A stretch of 64,000 bases of DNA. Source: Methanomassiliicoccales archaeon PtaU1.Bin124 (GTDB lineage: Archaea > Thermoplasmatota > Thermoplasmata > Methanomassiliicoccales > UBA472). Position 1 is the first letter of the stretch. Every line of letters begins with the position of its first letter. Below, one piece after another: positions 39,094 to 47,230 of this stretch. A program made the position numbers and the translations under genes. The notes under the pieces are model-generated. The model saw only the letters and a list, made by a program, of their open reading frames with translations. It was not told where the DNA came from and did no database searches. The stretch spans positions 186,001 through 250,000 of the forward strand of contig MVRC01000015.1 of NCBI GenBank assembly GCA_002067865.1, given 5' to 3'.

Positions 39094-39309
39094 ATGAACC
39101 CAAAACCCTTGTGTTTCACATGCCTCCACCGTGAGAACCGCCCTGAGCTGGGCGTCAACGACCAGTTGATCTACTGCCGCAAAAAGGACATGGTCGTGAG
39201 GCCCAAGGTGGAATGCACCGTTTTCTATCGGGCAACGCAGCAATCGATCAAGGAGCTGCACAAGTCCCTCTACGGGACGATAGACGAGGAAGGCGAAGGA
39301 GAGATCTAA
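39094..39309 (+). CDS. Small four-cysteine protein
   Basis: 71 residues with CFTC (7, 10), C28 and C41, probably a small metal-binding protein; function unknown. The ATG at 39094 is about 25 nt after AAATACCTAAAG (39064-39075), giving a leaderless mRNA separate from glpABC. Its stop overlaps the convergent RAD55-like gene by four bases. Confidence 0.65.
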   Translation: MNPKPLCFTCLHRENRPELGVNDQLIYCRKKDMVVRPKVECTVFYRATQQSIKELHKSLYGTIDEEGEGEI

Positions 39310-39989
39310 CGCCATTCCAGCAGCGGATTCGTAACATTCGTGTCCACTGATCTGATCTCAAAGGGGATCCACTGGTTGGCAGCTGGTATGCCGCGCATAT
39401 GGCGGATGCGCATGCGCCGGTTCAAGTCCTCATCGAACTTCAGCTCCAGCACGCCGTCGGCTATGGCCATGAGATGGTTCACCGTCTTTTCGTCATGCAC
39501 TCCGTCGTGCACCGAGAAGACCGCGGTGCCGAACTCGTTCCTGACCCGTGAACTGGATATCTGGAAGAACTTCAATACCACATTGGACTGGTTGTACAGG
39601 AACAGTGTCGAAAGGGTATAGAAGAAGATCCGCACCGGTTTGCCATATTCCCCGGCGATGGCCGCCACGTTGAACATAATGCCTTCGATGTCCCCGGCCG
39701 GTCTGACCTCGCTCCTTGCGAACGAGGCCCTCTCATCGACCGTTCCCAGCAAACTGGAGTGGTAATCGATGATGAACAGCTTCTTGCCCAGCAGCTTGTC
39801 CGTCTTGATGCCGAAGTTGCGCATTATGGCCAGCAGGTCCGCTGGCAATACGTCCATGGTGACGAAGATGACCGTCTCGCCCCCGTCCAGGTAATCCTTG
39901 GCCAAGCTGACGTCGAACTCCAGCATGCCGATGCCGGGGGACCCCATCATGAGAATGGAGCACATGTCTGGCAATGATGCTTTGATCAT
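39306..39989 (-). CDS. RAD55/KaiC-like protein with lost P-loop
   Basis: 227 residues with the RecA-core order of the archaeal RAD55 family: first strand and P-loop at GSPGIGML (16-23), then VIFVTMDV, KLFIIDYHSS (Walker B position), IFFYTLSTLFLYN and a conserved C-terminal sheet. The canonical GSPGxGKS/T reads GIGML: the ATP-binding Lys and Ser/Thr are replaced by Met and Leu, so it probably does not hydrolyse ATP. It follows the GvpD-like ATPase gene after nine bases and probably acts with it. Confidence 0.8.
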   Translation of the reverse strand: MIKASLPDMCSILMMGSPGIGMLEFDVSLAKDYLDGGETVIFVTMDVLPADLLAIMRNFGIKTDKLLGKKLFIIDYHSSLLGTVDERASFARSEVRPAGDIEGIMFNVAAIAGEYGKPVRIFFYTLSTLFLYNQSNVVLKFFQISSSRVRNEFGTAVFSVHDGVHDEKTVNHLMAIADGVLELKFDEDLNRRMRIRHMRGIPAANQWIPFEIRSVDTNVTNPLLEWR

Positions 39990-39998
39990 CGGTCCACC

Positions 39999-41459
39999 TC
40001 ACACGATGGGGGTGAGCGAGATCTTTCCGCCCTTGGCTCGCTCTTCCATTGCCAGGGCGTTGCATTCAGTGAACGGTTCCTCGCCGTAGATGACGATGGT
40101 ACCACCTATGCGATCGGCCTTGATGTGCACGTTCGCGAGGTCGGACAGCCTCTCCTTCGAACGGGATGAAGGTGACGTGATGCAAACGCACACTCCCTTG
40201 TTCCGCTTCATGATGCCCAGATGCTCTGGCATCTGGTCCATGACCTTCTCCCCATAGATCGATTCCAATGTATCAAAGCCAAGGAGCGAGAGCATGGGGG
40301 ATTCGGTGCCGCTCAGGCTGTAGGATATGGTCTTCCACTTCAGGTCGGTGGCGGCATTGGACCCTTCGACCGGCATGATGTACGGGGCCGAAGCCTCCAT
40401 CTGGGAAGCGACCTCAGGCACACGTACGCACCTCTCGAACTGTTCCTTGCTGACCAGCGAGGCCATCTGTGTCCGCACGGCGTCGGCGCTGACCTTGCGC
40501 AACGGCACCCAGAGCACGCCTCTCCTCATGGAAACGAAGTTCGCTACCAGGGATTGCTCGATGAGGCCGCTTACGCTGGAGGGCACGCCCGGTCCCAGCT
40601 CGACCAGGACCATGGAACCCCTTTCCAGGCCGCCGTTAGTGAGCCTGTCCAGATCGATGATCCCGCTCGAAACGTGCCCGTTGTGGTCCTCAATGGCCAT
40701 CCACCCGGTGTGGGCGGGGATGCGGTCGGAACCATAACCGAAGGTCTGGATCTTTCCGCCTTTTAAGGTGAATAGGTATTTTGGCTGCTGTATCTCACAG
40801 CCGCGCAACTTGACGATCTCGATCTCCCTGACCCGTCTACGGTTGAATTCGCTCCGGGATACGATGACGACACCGTCACCCAGGTAGTCGAGCGATTGCT
40901 CGGTGTTCTCCAGGACATAGAGCACATTGGAGCCGTAGCCTTCCACCAGGTCCTTCTGCAATGCGGAAATGAGCGACGAGAACGTCATGCCGTAGCGTTC
41001 GGCCAGCGCATCGATGCTGTCGATGACGATCAAGGTCCGTGCCGGGGCCATGGTCTCGACCAGTTCATAGAGGCTTTCCAGCTCCCCCAGGTCACGACCG
41101 ATGGAGATCGACATCTCCTTCTTCGGGGCACCCATCTGCTGAGATCCCAGCCCTTTGAGCTTGCTAAGGCCGTTGCGGCTCTTCTGGCTGATCTTCCCGC
41201 TGGGGTCCTTCACGGATGGATACGCTATTCCCATCAGCCGGTCCTCCAGCCATGGGAAATGCTGCATGAGGGCGCTGTCAGAGACCCTGGTGGAGAAGTA
41301 ATACCCCTTCTCGATATGCGCCAGTTCCTCTATCACCTGGAGCGCGAAGGTGGTCTTGCCTGCCCCCGCCACCCCTCTGACGATAAGGGAATGCCCGCCC
41401 GGACTGGTGAAGAACGTGAAAATCTCGGACGGTATGCGCATCTTCTCGTACGATTCCAT
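39999..41459 (-). CDS. GvpD/KaiC-like P-loop ATPase
   Basis: 486 residues from ATG 41459 (ATG 41465 is also open). The first half is a RecA-type ATPase with GGHSLIVRGVAGAGKTTFA (P-loop 29-37) and Walker B TLIVIDSID, as in the P-loop domain of GvpD, the gas-vesicle regulator of haloarchaea. The second half (from about 245, GIIDLDRLTNGGLERG) looks like a degenerate second RecA domain with GPGVPSSVSG in place of a P-loop. No gas-vesicle genes are present, so a signalling role is more likely. A TATATAG box at 41478-41484 suits a leaderless start. Operon with the RAD55-like gene. Confidence 0.82.
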   Translation of the reverse strand: MESYEKMRIPSEIFTFFTSPGGHSLIVRGVAGAGKTTFALQVIEELAHIEKGYYFSTRVSDSALMQHFPWLEDRLMGIAYPSVKDPSGKISQKSRNGLSKLKGLGSQQMGAPKKEMSISIGRDLGELESLYELVETMAPARTLIVIDSIDALAERYGMTFSSLISALQKDLVEGYGSNVLYVLENTEQSLDYLGDGVVIVSRSEFNRRRVREIEIVKLRGCEIQQPKYLFTLKGGKIQTFGYGSDRIPAHTGWMAIEDHNGHVSSGIIDLDRLTNGGLERGSMVLVELGPGVPSSVSGLIEQSLVANFVSMRRGVLWVPLRKVSADAVRTQMASLVSKEQFERCVRVPEVASQMEASAPYIMPVEGSNAATDLKWKTISYSLSGTESPMLSLLGFDTLESIYGEKVMDQMPEHLGIMKRNKGVCVCITSPSSRSKERLSDLANVHIKADRIGGTIVIYGEEPFTECNALAMEERAKGGKISLTPIV

Positions 41460-41616
41460 CAACATGCCTTCTATTGTCTATATATCACCACCCGGCTCAT
41501 TATTAAACAAATTTGCGAACAAATTATCAAATCACAGATTGAATCGTCGCAAATAGGTGCGGCGATGAAACATTTAAATTCACTGTATCAAATGGGGCCA
41601 GTGGGGAATGGGATAG

Positions 41617-42807
41617 ATGCAGGCAGTCATACTAGCCGCCGGAGAGGGCACGAGATTGCGACCGTTCACGCTGACCCGCCCGAAGGTCATGCTGCCTGTC
41701 GGTAACCGTCCCATCCTGGAGTTCGTGGTCGAATCGCTCGTGGCCAATGGTGTTCGGGACATAGTCATGGTGGTCGGCTACCACAAGGAGCGCATCATGT
41801 CGTTCTTCGGCGATGGCTCGAAGTTCGGAGCGCGCATCAGCTACGTGGTCCAGGACAAGCAGCTCGGCACCGGCCATGCCATGATGTATCTCAAGGGCGT
41901 GGTGAAGGGAAGGTTCCTTCTTTTACCAGGCGACAACATAGTCGACAAAGAGGCCGTGGCCGCATTGCTCACGATCAATGAGGGCAGCGCGGTCCTCGTG
42001 ACCGAGAGCGACGAGCCTTCCAAGTATGGCGTGGTCGAATTGAGCCAGGGCCGAGTGGTTCAGATACATGAAAAGCCCCGGGAGACGGTAGGGAACATCA
42101 TCAACACCGGGCTGTACAATTTCCAGGGCGACATCCTTCCGCTCATCGAGCATGAGGTGAAGCAGGGGAAATACGGCATCACCGAAGCGCTCCAGGGAGT
42201 TCTAAAGAGGATGGACCTCAGCGGCATCAGGCTGAGGGGCCGATGGGAGGATGCGGTCTATCCCTGGGACCTGGTGCGCCTGAACGAGATCGCGCTGGAG
42301 AGCGGAGGGCAGGACATCAACGGGACCATCGAACCTGGCGCCACCATTAAAGGCCCGGTCCGCATCGGAAAGGGCACCAAGATCAGGTCAGGCTGCTACG
42401 TCGAGGGACCGGTCGTCATCGGCGAGGGCTGCGACATCGGACCATCGGTGAGCATCATGCCGTCCACCAGCATCGGCAACGGCACGAACATCGACCCGTT
42501 CACCTGCATCAAGAACAGCATCATCATGGCGAACGTCAACATCGGTTCGCATTCCAACATCTGCCAGAGCGTGATCGACGACAGCGTCAGGATAGCCTCC
42601 AACTTCGCTGCCACCTGCGGTGACGCGAACGTGCAGATCGAGAAGCAATGGCATTCCGTTGACAACATCGGGTGCATGGTGGGGGAGGAGACCTCCATCG
42701 GGGCCGGGGCCATAGTTTCGTCCGGCAGCATCATCGGCTCGTCGTGCCGCATTGGGAACGGCGCCAAGGTCTCAGGTTATCTGGAAAACAGGAGCATAGT
42801 GATCTGA
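41617..42807 (+). CDS. glmU: Bifunctional sugar-1-phosphate nucleotidylyltransferase/acetyltransferase (GlmU-like)
   Basis: 396 residues. The N-terminal nucleotidyltransferase has LAAGEGTRLRPFTLTRPKVMLPVGN and LGTGHAM; from about residue 235 a left-handed beta-helix of hexapeptide repeats (IGKGTKI, IGEGCDI, IGNGTNI, IGSHSNI) carries acetyltransferase activity. The likely job is GlcN-1-P -> GlcNAc-1-P -> UDP-GlcNAc; archaeal homologues may also take Glc- or GalN-1-P. Its stop overlaps the glmS ATG, and together they give the UDP-GlcNAc route. TATA-like CATTTAAATT at 41571-41580. Confidence 0.93.
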   Translation: MQAVILAAGEGTRLRPFTLTRPKVMLPVGNRPILEFVVESLVANGVRDIVMVVGYHKERIMSFFGDGSKFGARISYVVQDKQLGTGHAMMYLKGVVKGRFLLLPGDNIVDKEAVAALLTINEGSAVLVTESDEPSKYGVVELSQGRVVQIHEKPRETVGNIINTGLYNFQGDILPLIEHEVKQGKYGITEALQGVLKRMDLSGIRLRGRWEDAVYPWDLVRLNEIALESGGQDINGTIEPGATIKGPVRIGKGTKIRSGCYVEGPVVIGEGCDIGPSVSIMPSTSIGNGTNIDPFTCIKNSIIMANVNIGSHSNICQSVIDDSVRIASNFAATCGDANVQIEKQWHSVDNIGCMVGEETSIGAGAIVSSGSIIGSSCRIGNGAKVSGYLENRSIVI

Positions 42808-44600
42808 TGTGCGGCATCATCGGTTATACCGGATATCGGCAGGCAGCAGAGGTATTGATCGAGGCGTTGCGCCGTCTGGAATACCGCGGTTACGACTCTG
42901 CCGGCGTGGCCATACTCAGCCCCAGCCTCAAGATCCATAAGAAGAAGGGGGAGCTGCACCAGCTCCAGTCCAGCCTTCCGCACATCGACGGCAGGGTCGG
43001 CGTCGGCCATACCCGCTGGGCCACCTGCGGCAAGCCTTCCAACGAGAACGCCCATCCGTTCCTGGACTGCAGCGGCAAGATCGCCCTGGTCCACAACGGC
43101 ATCATCGAGAACTACATGGCGCTCAAGGAGGGTCTGCAGGAGGAGGGCCACAAGTTCTCCTCCCAGACCGATACCGAGGTCATCGTCCATCTCATCGAGA
43201 AGTTCTACCAGGGCGACCTCCACGAGGCCGTCAAGTCTGCCTTGAAGGAGATAAAGGGCACTTACGCCATCGCCGCGGTCGTCCAGGGGTCCGACGAGAT
43301 CGTCGCCGCCCGCAAGGAGAACCCACTGGTCATCGGCGTGGGCGTCAACGAGAACTTCGTTGCCTCCGACGTCACTGCGCTTCTTTCGTACACCAACAAG
43401 GTGCGCCACGTCATGGACGGCGAGACCGTCCTGGTCAGGCCCGAGGGCGTGAGGGTGTTCGATTCCGAGGGCCGGGAGGTGCACCGCGAGGACACCATCA
43501 TCACATGGAGCGCGGAGGACGCGCAAAAGGGGGGTTTCCCTCACTTCATGCTGAAAGAGATATTCGAGGAGCCCCAGGCCATCCACAATTCTTTGCTGGG
43601 GACCCTGGACATCATCGAGAACGGCGAGATCGTTCCGAACGTGCAGTTCTCTTCGATCAAGATCATCGCCTGCGGCTCATCTTACCATGCGGCCATGGTG
43701 GGTAAGTACATCCTGGAGGAGCTGGGGAAGATCCCCGTCACGCTGGAGCTCGCGTCCGAATATCGTTATTCGCCCGGGGCCAAGGAGTTCCCCCTGGTCA
43801 TCTTGATATCCCAGAGCGGCGAGACCGCCGACACGCTTGCGGCCGCCAGGGAGGCAAGGCGCAGGGGCTGCCGTACGATGGGCATAACCAACGTGATCGG
43901 TTCCACCTTGACCCGGGAAGTGGACGAGGTGGTCTACACCCGTGCCGGTCCGGAGATCGGGGTGGCCGCCACCAAGACGTTCCTTACCCAGCTCATCGCG
44001 CTCTACATCATTTCCATCCGCATAGGATTTGCCAGGAGGGTCCTCAGCCACGATGCGATGTGGAAGGCGCTCTCCGAGCTGCGCAAGATGCCTGGAGTGG
44101 TCCAGGCGGTCCTGGACAACGCCGCCGAGGTGGAGAAGACCGTGGAGCTCTTGGTCCCGGCAAGGGACATCTTCTTCATCGGCCGCAACGTGAACTACCC
44201 GACCATGCTGGAGGGCGCGCTCAAGCTGAAGGAGATATCTTACATCCATGCGGAAGGGTTCGCTGCCGGGGAGCTAAAGCACGGCCCGCTCGCCTTGCTG
44301 GACGCAACCACGCCGGTGATCGCGGTGGCCATGCGCACCGACCATACCTACGAGAAGATGCTGGCGAACATCAGCGAGGTGGCAGCGAGGGAGAGCCCGG
44401 TCCTGTCCATCGGATGCGATGGAGATAGGGAATTGGCAGCGGTCTCCGTGAACATGATCAAGGTGCCATGCGTCTCGCCGCTGTTCTCGCCCATACCGGT
44501 CACGGTGGTGCTGCAGCTCATCGCTTACTACACTGCTCAGAAGAAGGGCCGTTCCATCGACAAGCCTAAGAACCTGGCCAAGAGCGTCACGGTCGAATGA
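42807..44600 (+). CDS. glmS: Glutamine--fructose-6-phosphate aminotransferase
   Basis: 597 residues. Nucleophile Cys2 begins the Ntn glutaminase (CGIIGYTGYRQA; RLEYRGYDSAG; HTRWATCGKPSNENAHP), followed by two SIS isomerase domains (CGSSYHA, SQSGETADT, and the C-terminal GELKHGPLALLD and TVE end). Makes glucosamine-6-phosphate from fructose-6-phosphate and glutamine. The start at 42807 is fixed by the MCG start; the ORF extension to 42672 is inside glmU. Confidence 0.97.
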   Translation: MCGIIGYTGYRQAAEVLIEALRRLEYRGYDSAGVAILSPSLKIHKKKGELHQLQSSLPHIDGRVGVGHTRWATCGKPSNENAHPFLDCSGKIALVHNGIIENYMALKEGLQEEGHKFSSQTDTEVIVHLIEKFYQGDLHEAVKSALKEIKGTYAIAAVVQGSDEIVAARKENPLVIGVGVNENFVASDVTALLSYTNKVRHVMDGETVLVRPEGVRVFDSEGREVHREDTIITWSAEDAQKGGFPHFMLKEIFEEPQAIHNSLLGTLDIIENGEIVPNVQFSSIKIIACGSSYHAAMVGKYILEELGKIPVTLELASEYRYSPGAKEFPLVILISQSGETADTLAAAREARRRGCRTMGITNVIGSTLTREVDEVVYTRAGPEIGVAATKTFLTQLIALYIISIRIGFARRVLSHDAMWKALSELRKMPGVVQAVLDNAAEVEKTVELLVPARDIFFIGRNVNYPTMLEGALKLKEISYIHAEGFAAGELKHGPLALLDATTPVIAVAMRTDHTYEKMLANISEVAARESPVLSIGCDGDRELAAVSVNMIKVPCVSPLFSPIPVTVVLQLIAYYTAQKKGRSIDKPKNLAKSVTVE

Positions 44601-44601
44601 C

Positions 44602-45585
44602 CTAGACGATCTTTTCCGGGCACTGCTCCCGTCGAGAACAGGATTGGCATTTTCCCGGTCGGTTGTGGTTGCGGTGCACTTCGATATCGCCTTTCAGGGC
44701 CGACCTCATCTCCCCCGCCTTATCGGTGACGATCTGCCTCAGCCCCTCATCGAAATCGATATCGAACTCGGTGTCCCCATACTTCAGAATGCCCCTGGTC
44801 ACCTTTTCCCCCGAATCGCTCATGATCAAGCAATATGCCGCCAGCTGAACGATATGCGAGAACAGCGGACCACGGGGCTGCCTGCCGCTCTTCAGCTCCA
44901 CCGGGACCAGCTCGTCCCCCTCCTCCAATATGTAGTCCGGCCTGCCGGTGATGCCATATCTTTCGGAACGGAGCAGACGGGAGGTATCGTTGCCGATGTA
45001 GGCGATCTTCGCTGTCAGGTGGATCTCCTTCCGCCTGATCTCGATCTCCCTCTGGGACTTCAGCGTGTTGTACAGCGCGAAGCTGGTGCCGATGAGCCAG
45101 AACAGGGACAGCACCAATGCCACCTCGGCCAGTACCATCGGCACGTCATAGGTGATGAGAACAATGAGGATGAGGAACACCGTCACCACGCTGGCGATGG
45201 CGAACACCCTTTCCGCCCGTCTCACCCCGTTCTTTTTGTCCAGGCTGGCATGCATCACCAGATAGAGGATCAGTCCGATCCACAGGACGGTCGGAAGGGC
45301 GCTGAGCCAGATGATGTCCCTGGAGAAGTTGCGGTTGAAGATGAACAGGCCGATCAACGCCATGACGGTGGCTATCAATGAGAACCACAGGACCGCCCGC
45401 TCCCAGGCCAGGGCTCGCTTTTCCCCATCCAGGATGTTCCGCAGCTCCCTGCTCACATCCTCATGGCGCGCCACGCCCTGTTCCAGCTGCTGGGACTGAG
45501 CCTCGGTCTGCAATCCCAGCCACCAGCTGAGGGGACAGTAACAGAAACGCTCCAGCTCGCTGGCCGAAATTATCGGTTCGGCCAT
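44602..45585 (-). CDS. Cas4-like PD-(D/E)XK nuclease with four inserted membrane helices
   Basis: 327 residues. The N-terminus matches Cas4 (ISASELERFCYCPLSWWL; C15/C17) and GVARHE supplies the usual His41. Residues 63-84, 90-111, 126-146 and 148-174 are hydrophobic helices. The nuclease core follows: GRPDYI (D217), VPVELKSG (E230, K232), QLAAYCLI (Q247), and the [4Fe-4S] cysteines C313, C316 and C322 with C17. All Cas4 catalytic and cluster residues are present, so a membrane-bound 5'-to-3' exonuclease or nickase is predicted. No CRISPR or cas genes are nearby. Its promoter has a 14-bp palindrome. Ends in TAG one base from glmS. Confidence 0.82.
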   Translation of the reverse strand: MAEPIISASELERFCYCPLSWWLGLQTEAQSQQLEQGVARHEDVSRELRNILDGEKRALAWERAVLWFSLIATVMALIGLFIFNRNFSRDIIWLSALPTVLWIGLILYLVMHASLDKKNGVRRAERVFAIASVVTVFLILIVLITYDVPMVLAEVALVLSLFWLIGTSFALYNTLKSQREIEIRRKEIHLTAKIAYIGNDTSRLLRSERYGITGRPDYILEEGDELVPVELKSGRQPRGPLFSHIVQLAAYCLIMSDSGEKVTRGILKYGDTEFDIDFDEGLRQIVTDKAGEMRSALKGDIEVHRNHNRPGKCQSCSRREQCPEKIV

Positions 45586-45591
45586 GCTATG

Positions 45592-45605
45592 ATACCTGCA
45601 GGTAT
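45592..45605. promoter_or_regulatory. Perfect 14-bp palindrome in the Cas4-like gene promoter
   Basis: ATACCTGCAGGTAT, seven bases before the start codon (45585) and just after a TATA-like TTCTAATATC (minus strand, 45606-45615, 26 nt from the start). This is the classic place for a repressor operator. Confidence 0.55.
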
Positions 45606-45633: not shown

Positions 45634-46401
45634 TCACTCACAGTCGAGGTATTTACAGACCTGGTCGGTCAGGCTGCCGTCCATGATGAAGATGCCTTCT
45701 GGTATCTGGACATCATCGACGTAGCCGAACCAGTAGACCACTAGGCCCTGGCCGAACATGTCCAGGTACGGGGCCAGCTGTTTCTTCAGATTCTTGTTGA
45801 CCTCGATCCTGTCCCCGAAGGTGGCCTTGGACTCGATCCAGTTCAGCTCCCATCCGTTCACCTTGACCGGCTTGTCGAAAAGGCAGTCAGGTGTCTTGGC
45901 GAACTCTCCCCTGATGTCCTTCTCCGTCCTGTAGGTGATGGAATGCTCGTTGAGCCAGGTCTGCAGCTTGCTCTCGCCCCAAGCGCCACGCTTGTACTGC
46001 AGTTCGGTGGCCCAGGGTGAATAGACATAATCGGCCTCGGTGATCTCTACGATCTCCTTCTTCATCCTGGCGCTGGGAATGATCTCAGGGTCCCGGACAT
46101 ATGCCCAGAACTCCTTCCTTCCCTTTCCCATCTCCTTGAAAAGCAAAAGGCCAGTGAGGATCGGCGAGAACTCCGCCTTGTCCGCGATCTGCAGCAAGGA
46201 CATGCCCCGGTTCCAATCGGCCAGCATCTGCCGGCTCCACCTTTCGACGCGATAATACGCCTTGGTCGTCTCCCTGACGGTGCGCTGTGTGTAAAGGACG
46301 TTCAAAAATTCTTCTTCCAGACCGAGCTCCCCCGCGAGGGTCTTGATGTCGCTAGGCCTGCTCAATTGGTTGTAAAGGTGTTTAAAATCTTCATATTTCA
46401 T
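45634..46401 (-). CDS. TPD-domain nuclease, homologue of human CDIN1/C15orf41
   Basis: 255 residues. An N-terminal helical region with HTH-like character (1-100) is followed by a PD-(D/E)XK fold: E143 (GAWGESKL), TPD at 170-172 (FAKTPDCLF) and WIESKATFGD with E190 and K192. The TPD motif and WIESKA block are the CDIN1 family signature. Human CDIN1 binds codanin-1 and is mutated in congenital dyserythropoietic anaemia type I; archaeal members are related to Holliday-junction resolvases. Substrate unknown. The ATG at 46401 has AGAGTG before it; a GTG at 46410 is in frame. Same strand as the Cas4-like gene, 48 nt upstream of it. Confidence 0.85.
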   Translation of the reverse strand: MKYEDFKHLYNQLSRPSDIKTLAGELGLEEEFLNVLYTQRTVRETTKAYYRVERWSRQMLADWNRGMSLLQIADKAEFSPILTGLLLFKEMGKGRKEFWAYVRDPEIIPSARMKKEIVEITEADYVYSPWATELQYKRGAWGESKLQTWLNEHSITYRTEKDIRGEFAKTPDCLFDKPVKVNGWELNWIESKATFGDRIEVNKNLKKQLAPYLDMFGQGLVVYWFGYVDDVQIPEGIFIMDGSLTDQVCKYLDCE

Positions 46402-46603
46402 TAGGTTCACTCTTTATAATTGGTTGGTTTCAGAGTGAAGTAGGTACGCCTGTATTTTAAAATATCGTTAAAAAGCAGCATATTTTAAACGACTGGATAT
46501 GCTAATGGCGAAGGAGCCATATTTATTCGTTGAGGCCAGAATATTTATAATGAAAATATCCTTTCCTAATGCAAGTCCAGCCCAATGCTGGTCATAAATT
46601 GAG

Positions 46604-47230
46604 ATGGGAGTGAAAAAAAGCATGTTCGACAGTTTGCCATTCATGCCAAAGGCACAAGGGCCACCATGGTTACCAGCTGCCGTGGCGGAAGCGAGACAAT
46701 GGGCTTATTGGGGAGTTTTGATCGCGTTCATATTCGTGCTGATCGGCATCATCGTGACCATCGTTGCGGCCATATTCGCACCGGGAATTCTCATCACGGC
46801 GGTCATCAGCCTTGTAATCTCCATCGTCGTTCTATTCCTGATCAAATCGACGATCTTCGACCCGTTGGACCAGGGCAGGTTCAGGGACACCAATATCTTC
46901 TTCCTGATCTGGGGCATCCTGGGATTGTTCATCTATCTCATCCCTGGAATTCTCATCCTGATCGGGTTCATCAAGCTGCAGGAGGTCTTCTCCCCGCAGT
47001 ACCAGCAGTATCAGGCCCAGCCGGGATATCAGGCCCCGCCACCCGCTGGACAGCAGCCACAGCAGCAGTACCAGGCCCCGCCACCGCAGCAGCAGGCGCC
47101 CGCGCCACAGGCCCCGGCCCAGCCGGAACAGCATGCGCAGCAGAAGGTGGAGATGGTCAAGTGCGCCAAGTGCGGCGTTCAGTACCCCGCCTTCATGCAC
47201 CACTGCCCCAACTGCAACACGCCACGCTGA
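46604..47230 (+). CDS. Membrane protein with Gln/Pro-rich linker and zinc ribbon
   Basis: 208 residues: three hydrophobic segments (about 36-58, 61-82, 99-124), then a low-complexity Gln/Pro/Ala linker (about 130-185) and a C-terminal zinc ribbon CAKCGVQYPAFMHHCPNC. This is a DUF4064-like architecture; no function known. The promoter is AATATTTATAAT near 46538-46549. A second membrane zinc-ribbon protein is at 0.3-1.3 kb, but sequences differ. Confidence 0.8.
   Translation: MGVKKSMFDSLPFMPKAQGPPWLPAAVAEARQWAYWGVLIAFIFVLIGIIVTIVAAIFAPGILITAVISLVISIVVLFLIKSTIFDPLDQGRFRDTNIFFLIWGILGLFIYLIPGILILIGFIKLQEVFSPQYQQYQAQPGYQAPPPAGQQPQQQYQAPPPQQQAPAPQAPAQPEQHAQQKVEMVKCAKCGVQYPAFMHHCPNCNTPR

Follow-up and report, generated by a model that had tools for sequence, protein, structure and literature searches.

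A predicted membrane-embedded solo-Cas4 nuclease family with a repeated hairpin anchor and two-gene forms in archaea

Introduction

Members of the Cas4 family are known outside CRISPR systems and were surveyed in 2017 (PMC5704561). Two of these solo-Cas4 proteins, SSO0001 and Pcal_0546, are reported to possess 5'-to-3' exonuclease activity (PMC12538437), and the solo-Cas4 genes are described as evolving mostly vertically, with an expected role in repair (PMC5704561, PMC12538437). 

Here we analyse a Cas4-family gene of Methanomassiliicoccales archaeon PtaU1.Bin124, located in a stretch of 64,000 nucleotides (the window; contig MVRC01000015.1, positions 186,001–250,000), and compute the family assignment, residues, architecture, repeats, splitting and distribution of its product. 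The protein resembles SSO0001 and Pcal_0546 (pfam01930/COG1468) in its PD-(D/E)XK core, histidine ligand, RecB-type Q...Y motif and four cluster cysteines. Like them it is archaeal and encoded outside CRISPR loci, and it has profile and fold matches to the structures 4ic1 and 4r5q. The solved solo-Cas4 proteins are soluble and about 200 aa long, whereas the window protein carries a repeated membrane hairpin between its histidine helix and its core.

Results and Discussion

The window gene and its family

The gene for the membrane-embedded solo-Cas4 nuclease occupies positions 44602–45585 of the window (minus strand) and is a clean open reading frame of 327 codons with an ATG start, recognised by Pfam and NCBIfam profiles and by its orthologues. 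The 327-aa product matches the Pfam profiles PF12705 (PDDEXK_1; 1.3e-12, above cut-off) and PF01930 (Cas_Cas4; 7.4e-9, 36.3 bits against a cut-off of 22.7) and scores 79.7 bits with the NCBIfam model TIGR00372 (cas4; cut-off 65), values that exclude a chance match; the PADLOC Cas4 model matches it at 3e-23.

The N-terminal Cas4 motif (residues 3–47, ISASELERFCYCPLSWW...G..RH; 45445–45579, minus strand), which shows little or no variation in 45 orthologues sampled throughout the phylum, includes the first cluster cysteine, C17 (45535–45537), and the metal-ligand histidine, H41 (45463–45465). The PD-(D/E)XK nuclease core, delimited by Cas4 alignment, Foldseek and invariance, spans residues 193–300 (44686–45009, minus strand) and contains D217 (44935–44937), E230 (44896–44898), K232 (44890–44892), Q247 (44845–44847) and Y251, all of which fall on the expected positions when aligned with the solved Cas4 proteins 4ic1, 4r5q and 8d3l. 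Invariance also delimits a C-terminal cluster segment, residues 304–322 (HRNH....KCxxC.....C; 44620–44676, minus strand), with C313, C316 and C322. The R-x-H preceding these cysteines is a family signature of the membrane Cas4, and R305, H307, K312, C313, C316 and C322 are invariant in its single-chain members.

Among the 45 orthologues, 17 positions are invariant (E12, Y16, C17, G214, P216, D217, K232, H244, Y251, G265, Y269, R305, H307, K312, C313, C316 and C322), every one of them outside the membrane insert, in the nuclease parts. Thus, D217, K232 and Y251 never vary, and H41, E230 and Q247 are each conserved in at least 90%. The cluster cysteines C17, C313, C316 and C322 are likewise invariant and are retained in the split forms described below. 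H41, D217, E230, K232, Q247 and the four cysteines, which the preliminary description of this locus had named, are therefore all in place. By score, active-site residues, four cysteines and predicted fold the window protein is a member of the Cas4 family; judging from that family, it would bind an Fe-S cluster and cleave DNA.

The membrane insert

Hydropathy analysis of the window protein reveals four membrane segments, at about residues 65–83, 91–109, 127–145 and 148–166. An AlphaFold model built with a 45-sequence alignment (pLDDT 85, pTM 0.83) displays four long helices, 32–86, 89–114, 121–145 and 150–188, and a Cas4/MGME1-like domain atop this four-helix bundle. The membrane helices are thus defined by hydropathy and by a model whose confidence is 58–82 in the bundle and 92–98 in the core. 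The helical region comprises about 112 aa, close to the approximately 115 residues with four membrane helices that had been noted between the first helix and the core, and the entire insert from the conserved N-terminal motif to the core measures about 147 aa. In the model, His41 sits on a single continuous helix (residues 32–86) that includes TM1, and the TM4 helix (150–188) leads into the first strand of the core. The best Foldseek matches in the PDB are to Cas4 (7mi5, 6.7e-6; 7mi4; 4ic1, 2.4e-5; 8d3q), MGME1 and Dna2. Pfam also matched the insert to transporter-like families (DUF1129, MFS_2, UbiA), but below the curated cut-offs, and these matches were discarded as reflecting hydrophobicity.

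Topology prediction, which had been proposed as a check, agrees with a membrane anchor: the lysine plus arginine values of successive loops from the N- to the C-terminus (3.1 / 0.8 / 3.9 / 0.3 / 3.3) fit an N-in, C-in orientation, as does the even number of helices. Both nuclease pieces would accordingly reside in the cytosol. The hydrophobicity of the insert is conserved (charged residues make up 1–6% of the helices) and its sequence is not, the mean frequency of the most common residue being 0.39 in the insert versus 0.61 in the core. An insert that stays hydrophobic while its sequence varies, next to an invariant nuclease, suggests that selection has maintained both the enzyme and its membrane location.

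A repeated two-helix hairpin

By hydropathy, AlphaFold and hhalign the insert consists of two hairpins. Repeat 1 (residues 58–118; 45232–45414, minus strand) comprises TM1 (65–83) and TM2 (91–109), and repeat 2 (residues 121–182; 45040–45225, minus strand) comprises TM3 (127–145) and TM4 (148–166). When profiles of the two were compared with hhalign, they matched with a probability of 98.4 (E 6.8e-15, score 63), whereas the best score among 40 control shuffles of columns that preserved hydropathy class was 17.6. In the insert, a two-helix hairpin of about 60 aa has been duplicated in tandem.

The hairpin profile occurs once in two-helix proteins (families f38, f44, f45, f47, f52 and f56), twice in four-helix proteins and four times in the eight-helix proteins of f7, f20, f58 and f63; two or three of the expected four copies exceed the threshold in f43, and none in f59. 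Single-chain members have two, four or eight helices, always an even number. Raw hydropathy gave three helices in L069, L071 and L114; the length of their inserts places them among the four-helix proteins, one helix having missed the threshold, and for L114 the hairpin profile agrees. A low-confidence AlphaFold model of an eight-helix member (pLDDT 66.5), used solely for this feature, has eight long helices ahead of the core. In the eight-helix protein L235 (f58, a 652-aa frame), the sequence after the cluster cysteines reads like a TRAM-type nucleic-acid-binding domain.

Since the bundle is built of repeats of a two-helix hairpin, its copy number may vary with the nuclease remaining on the correct side of the membrane. 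The series of one, two and four copies with parity kept is therefore a readable case of an anchor growing by duplication without flipping a cytosolic enzyme.

Distribution and reality of the architecture

Orthologues of the same length are present in 48 of the 147 genomes of the order. Profile searches matched 278 of 400 genomes of the class and 251 of 390 of the phylum, numbers that are upper bounds since the profile also catches other Cas4 proteins, such as a Cas4-Cas1 fusion at L135. Orthologues at 62, 56, 48 and down to 35% identity share both length and helices, which excludes a frameshift. The architecture recurs in dozens of taxonomic families at 25–60% identity with invariant catalytic residues; the insert is absent only from CRISPR-type and other soluble Cas4 proteins.

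The preliminary description had allowed that the hydrophobic segments might stem from a frameshift or assembly error, or that homologues might lack the insert. Neither objection survives: full-length orthologues occur across order, class and phylum, and relatives within the membrane Cas4 family keep the insert. The few genomes with broken copies or an in-frame TAG (G132/L015, G298) might be taken to mean that the insert stems from misassembly or a frameshift, or is an inactive relic, yet against the orthologues in dozens of families, with their invariant catalytic residues, such a reading is practically untenable. The membrane-tethered Cas4 nuclease proposed earlier is consequently upheld by sequence, predicted structure, topology and phylum-wide conservation. 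It had also been called unusual, which is true of its kind but not of its number, as this is the normal form across a whole archaeal phylum.

The in-frame TAG occurs in two orthologues, L015 (genome G132) and one in G298; that of L015 replaces the residue directly following the conserved Trp ahead of TM1. Pyrrolysine is known from lineages related to the host archaea, and these codons might specify it, a sequencing error being as likely. A 906-aa frame in L112 was considered as a fusion and rejected, its first ~640 residues being an out-of-frame stretch without a domain.

Tree groups mostly match taxonomic families and the membrane Cas4 gene looks vertically inherited. It has been cleanly lost in some relatives and is thus not essential everywhere. 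In G016, glmS and the gene that flanks Cas4 on its other side (TPD, see below) are 75 bp apart with the Cas4 gene cleanly absent, and in G010 the 425 bp left at the site contain no recognisable Cas4 remnant.

Split two-gene forms

At 37 loci the protein is encoded by two genes: 11 in f14, 12 in f22, 13 in f48 and a second copy in f30. The split point coincides with the insert, always at the outer turn between helices, and the halves are encoded by adjacent or overlapping genes. The N-half, of about 85–125 codons in open frame, contains the Cas4 Cys/His motif and one membrane helix, with a stop within 0–7 residues; the C-half starts with one membrane helix, followed by the core and three cysteines. 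C17 is present in all 37 N-halves and H41 in 35; in the C-halves, the three cysteines and D217 are present in 37 of 37, and E230 and K232 in 36. The H307 signature is lost in the split forms of f14 and one f22 C-half is devoid of E230 and K232, so that some members may be drifting.

On a tree computed from the nuclease parts, two changes are needed to explain splitting, one in f22+f48+f30 (support 99) and the other in f14 (100), and all four architectures together require six; the tree was made by a quick method, has many weak branches and does not give the direction of change. Splitting has perhaps happened twice, a single origin being also possible on such a tree. With one cluster cysteine in the N-half and three in the C-half, the Fe-S cluster should bridge the two polypeptides, and with the histidine on one chain and the other active-site residues on the second, the active site should be shared between the subunits, if the placement of residues is a guide.

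The two genes might instead yield one protein through programmed frameshifting or stop read-through. The second gene lies consistently in the −1 frame of the first in f14 and at most f48 loci, and at many f48 loci the junction is closely preceded by AGGTGAT and has no canonical start codon nearby. However, f22 displays all three frame relations, mostly with ATG, GTG or TTG starts within a few nucleotides of the stop, and each of the three stop codons is used somewhere in the split set, so that frameshifting or read-through is not a common explanation of all split forms. The break also lies in the outer turn, where two proteins would still meet correctly. Such recoding is possible for f14 and f48; as an account of the split forms we consider it quite improbable. 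At ten f48 loci (L123, L151–L153, L155 and L157–L161) the apparent start of the C-half is ATA or TTG, in a 4-nt overlap with the stop of the N-half (ATAA, ATAG or TTGA), and it generally follows AGGTGAT or GGGTGAT by a few bases; these are possible non-canonical start codons or a possible frameshift signal.

On balance, we lean slightly towards a two-subunit enzyme of the following kind. A phylum-wide membrane Cas4, whose anchor is set by one, two or four hairpin copies, would have become, perhaps twice, a two-subunit enzyme in which each half has its own helix and the Fe-S cluster (1 + 3 Cys) and active site are shared. If this is true, the enzyme is a naturally split nuclease that assembles in the membrane, and its DNA-processing pathway is one still to be described. 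The halves also offer a biochemical handle: they are two short proteins, each with an incomplete active site and an incomplete cluster, and the pair should give an active nuclease only with both halves in one membrane.

The split forms also bear on whether the bundle does more than hold the enzyme. It might sense a signal (stress, envelope damage or a ligand) and switch the nuclease on via the unbroken His41 helix; in the AlphaFold model this metal-ligand helix is continuous with TM1, and the bundle, unlike the nuclease, is repeated and variable in size. Yet the bundle has no invariant residue and thus no sign of a binding site, the version with one helix per half leaves little space for a sensor, and the genes have no toxin-like context. 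A regulated effector of this kind appears unlikely.

A nuclease at the inner face of the membrane

The locus is probably best explained by a solo-Cas4 nuclease built into the cytoplasmic membrane with an even number of crossings, its halves closing in the cytosol into one Cas4 fold that would act on free-ended DNA at the inner face; activity, Fe-S cluster, in-cell topology and substrate are predicted features of this model. The first cytosolic part of the chain would consist of the cluster-cysteine segment followed by the histidine helix, which presumably continues without a break into the first membrane helix. After an even number of crossings the chain would re-enter the cytosol, where it would fold into the PD-(D/E)XK core and contribute the other three cluster cysteines. 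These two cytosolic parts would close into a single Cas4 fold, stapled by the predicted Fe-S cluster, on a membrane bundle made of repeats of one two-helix hairpin, two in the window protein; in other lineages, the hairpin appears to have been cut at its outer turn, which would turn the enzyme into two anchored subunits. The family predicts metal-dependent cutting or trimming of free-ended DNA at the inner face of the membrane. The simplest reading would be the 5'-to-3' exonuclease chemistry of solo-Cas4, fixed at that face. With such a placement across the whole phylum, the role becomes testable by location and by what the enzyme meets there, and the family suggests a DNA-processing machine, as yet unstudied, on the inner side of the membrane.

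Gene neighbourhood and possible roles

The gene upstream of Cas4, on the same strand and separated by 48 bp, encodes a predicted PD-(D/E)XK nuclease of the TPD family (45634–46410, minus strand; PF14811, 2.2e-43). On the other side, glmS (42807–44600, plus strand) is convergent, with the stop codons almost touching, and serves only as a synteny marker. Eight taxonomic families retain the TPD-Cas4 arrangement. TPD genes are present in 135 of the 147 genomes of the order and are a stable syntenic marker. The human member of the TPD family, CDIN1/C15ORF41, is linked to congenital dyserythropoietic anaemia type I. It has a PD-(D/E)XK nuclease domain, and no nuclease activity has been reported for it (PMC7261414). 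The archaeal TPD protein is a possible simple model for the CDIN1/C15ORF41 family.

The co-directional predicted nuclease in eight families is compatible with a role in genome maintenance, in which chromosomal DNA would be resected or trimmed near the membrane during repair, replication restart or segregation and the anchor would hold the enzyme at a membrane-bound site. In f22, the half-genes come after an SMC gene and a gene of ~260 aa without a Pfam match, and solo-Cas4 genes in general are described as mostly vertical and expected in repair (PMC5704561, PMC12538437). Nevertheless, TPD is found in 74 of 74 high-quality genomes of the order and the Cas4 gene in 27 of these, so the two are not obligate partners; TPD, considered as such a partner, was rejected because it is retained where Cas4 is lost. 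The clean losses of the Cas4 gene speak against a core repair enzyme, and repair at the membrane is an assumption in these archaea. We therefore hold this role to be possible but tentative.

Six other families have, immediately upstream of the membrane Cas4, a gene for a secreted LTD-PLD protein. Both of its HKD motifs are intact, it has a membrane helix at its C-terminus in most of these families, and it is possibly an outer-face nuclease or phospholipase. Proteins combining LTD with a double-HKD PLD (for example L099:10019-12673, minus strand, and 11 relatives), often with a PKD domain, are widespread in the class, and the window genome has a copy at G000:C4:48548-50257.

The Cas4 might alternatively clear DNA at the envelope, trimming or degrading viral, plasmid or naked DNA newly arrived across the membrane as a fixed inner-face barrier independent of CRISPR. 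The predicted inner-face location combined with Cas4 chemistry, the lack of a CRISPR adaptation module in the window genome and, in the six families, a secreted, membrane-anchored hydrolase predicted at the outer face are all consistent with this role. Nonetheless, LTD-PLD genes are common also in genomes without a Cas4 gene, which makes the link between the two local and led us to reject LTD-PLD as an obligate partner. The neighbours are housekeeping genes rather than a defence island, the membrane Cas4 has no match in phages or viral contigs, and vertical inheritance is unusual for a defence gene. Envelope DNA clearance is thus a comparably tentative proposal, and we regard it and genome maintenance as about equally likely. 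Of the two functions suggested in the preliminary description, degradation of incoming DNA and processing of DNA at the membrane, the former is not favoured over genome maintenance, as the neighbours (housekeeping genes, the TPD nuclease and, in one family, SMC) are unlike a defence island. The gene context is housekeeping and points to no single pathway.

Several further features of the neighbourhood deserve mention. In f22, the next gene downstream of the half-genes looks, from its sequence, like a tyrosyl-tRNA synthetase. In the window, a gene at 46604–47230 (plus strand) encodes a multi-pass membrane protein that has a zinc ribbon at its C-terminus and a long linker rich in Q, P and A, and its synteny is kept in seven taxonomic families. 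Two adjacent genes at 39306–41465 (minus strand) read like KaiC/RecA-type ATPases of 227 and 488 aa, with synteny beyond glmU kept in about ten loci. A perfect 14-bp palindrome, ATACCTGCAGGTAT, is located at 45592–45605, just ahead of the Cas4 start codon; it is absent from relatives and was rejected as a conserved element.

CRISPR and mobile elements

The whole window genome contains no other PF01930 match and no Cas1, and the neighbours of the Cas4 gene are glmS and TPD instead of cas1 and cas2. A role in CRISPR adaptation was therefore rejected for this genome, and the earlier placement of the gene away from CRISPR is confirmed by its being the sole PF01930 match. Searches for the membrane Cas4 in phages and viral contigs gave no match, plasmid matches were confined to the core (36–42% of the query), and a structural search of viral proteins returned only ordinary Cas4/RecB-like nucleases with low TM-scores. 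A viral or plasmid origin was rejected, there being no full-length match and the chromosomal synteny being conserved. Synteny and tree thus place the gene in the context of solo-Cas4, outside CRISPR-cas and mobile contexts and mostly vertical.

Comparison with known systems

Full-text searches of the accessible literature (including the main text of PMC5704561 and, by term, PMC12538437 and PMC12988326) retrieved no membrane-embedded or split Cas4; in PMC5704561, the Cas4 phylogenomics study of 2017, the main text mentions membranes only within a gene name. MGME1 and the nuclease domains of Dna2 and AdnB share with the window protein the fold and the order of active-site residues but have no membrane insert and have different domain partners; MGME1 is not known to have Fe-S cysteines. 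The Argonaute-associated Cas4 protein ACE1 (9iac, 9iab) is likewise a non-CRISPR member of the Cas4 family, with a weak Foldseek match (E 8.5e-4), and is set apart by its entry title, which names the Argonaute association and no membrane segment. The CRISPR Cas4 proteins of type I-C and I-G/I-U (Cas4-Cas1) provide the best Foldseek matches (7mi5, 7mi4, 8d3q), and the window protein exceeds the NCBIfam cas4 cut-off; unlike them, it has a membrane insert and no cas1, cas2 or effector genes near its gene.

From the solved solo-Cas4 proteins the window protein differs also by the HRNH signature ahead of its cysteines and by having sister lineages in which the protein is split. The soluble, single-domain form of the characterised solo-Cas4 proteins is not shared by the window family, which has an even-numbered insert or one helix per half. 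Solubility is a trait of the characterised members and not a published defining feature, and does not exclude the membrane form, which still counts as solo-Cas4. Membership of the family is ordinary; the membrane module, the duplication series and the two-subunit form look new.
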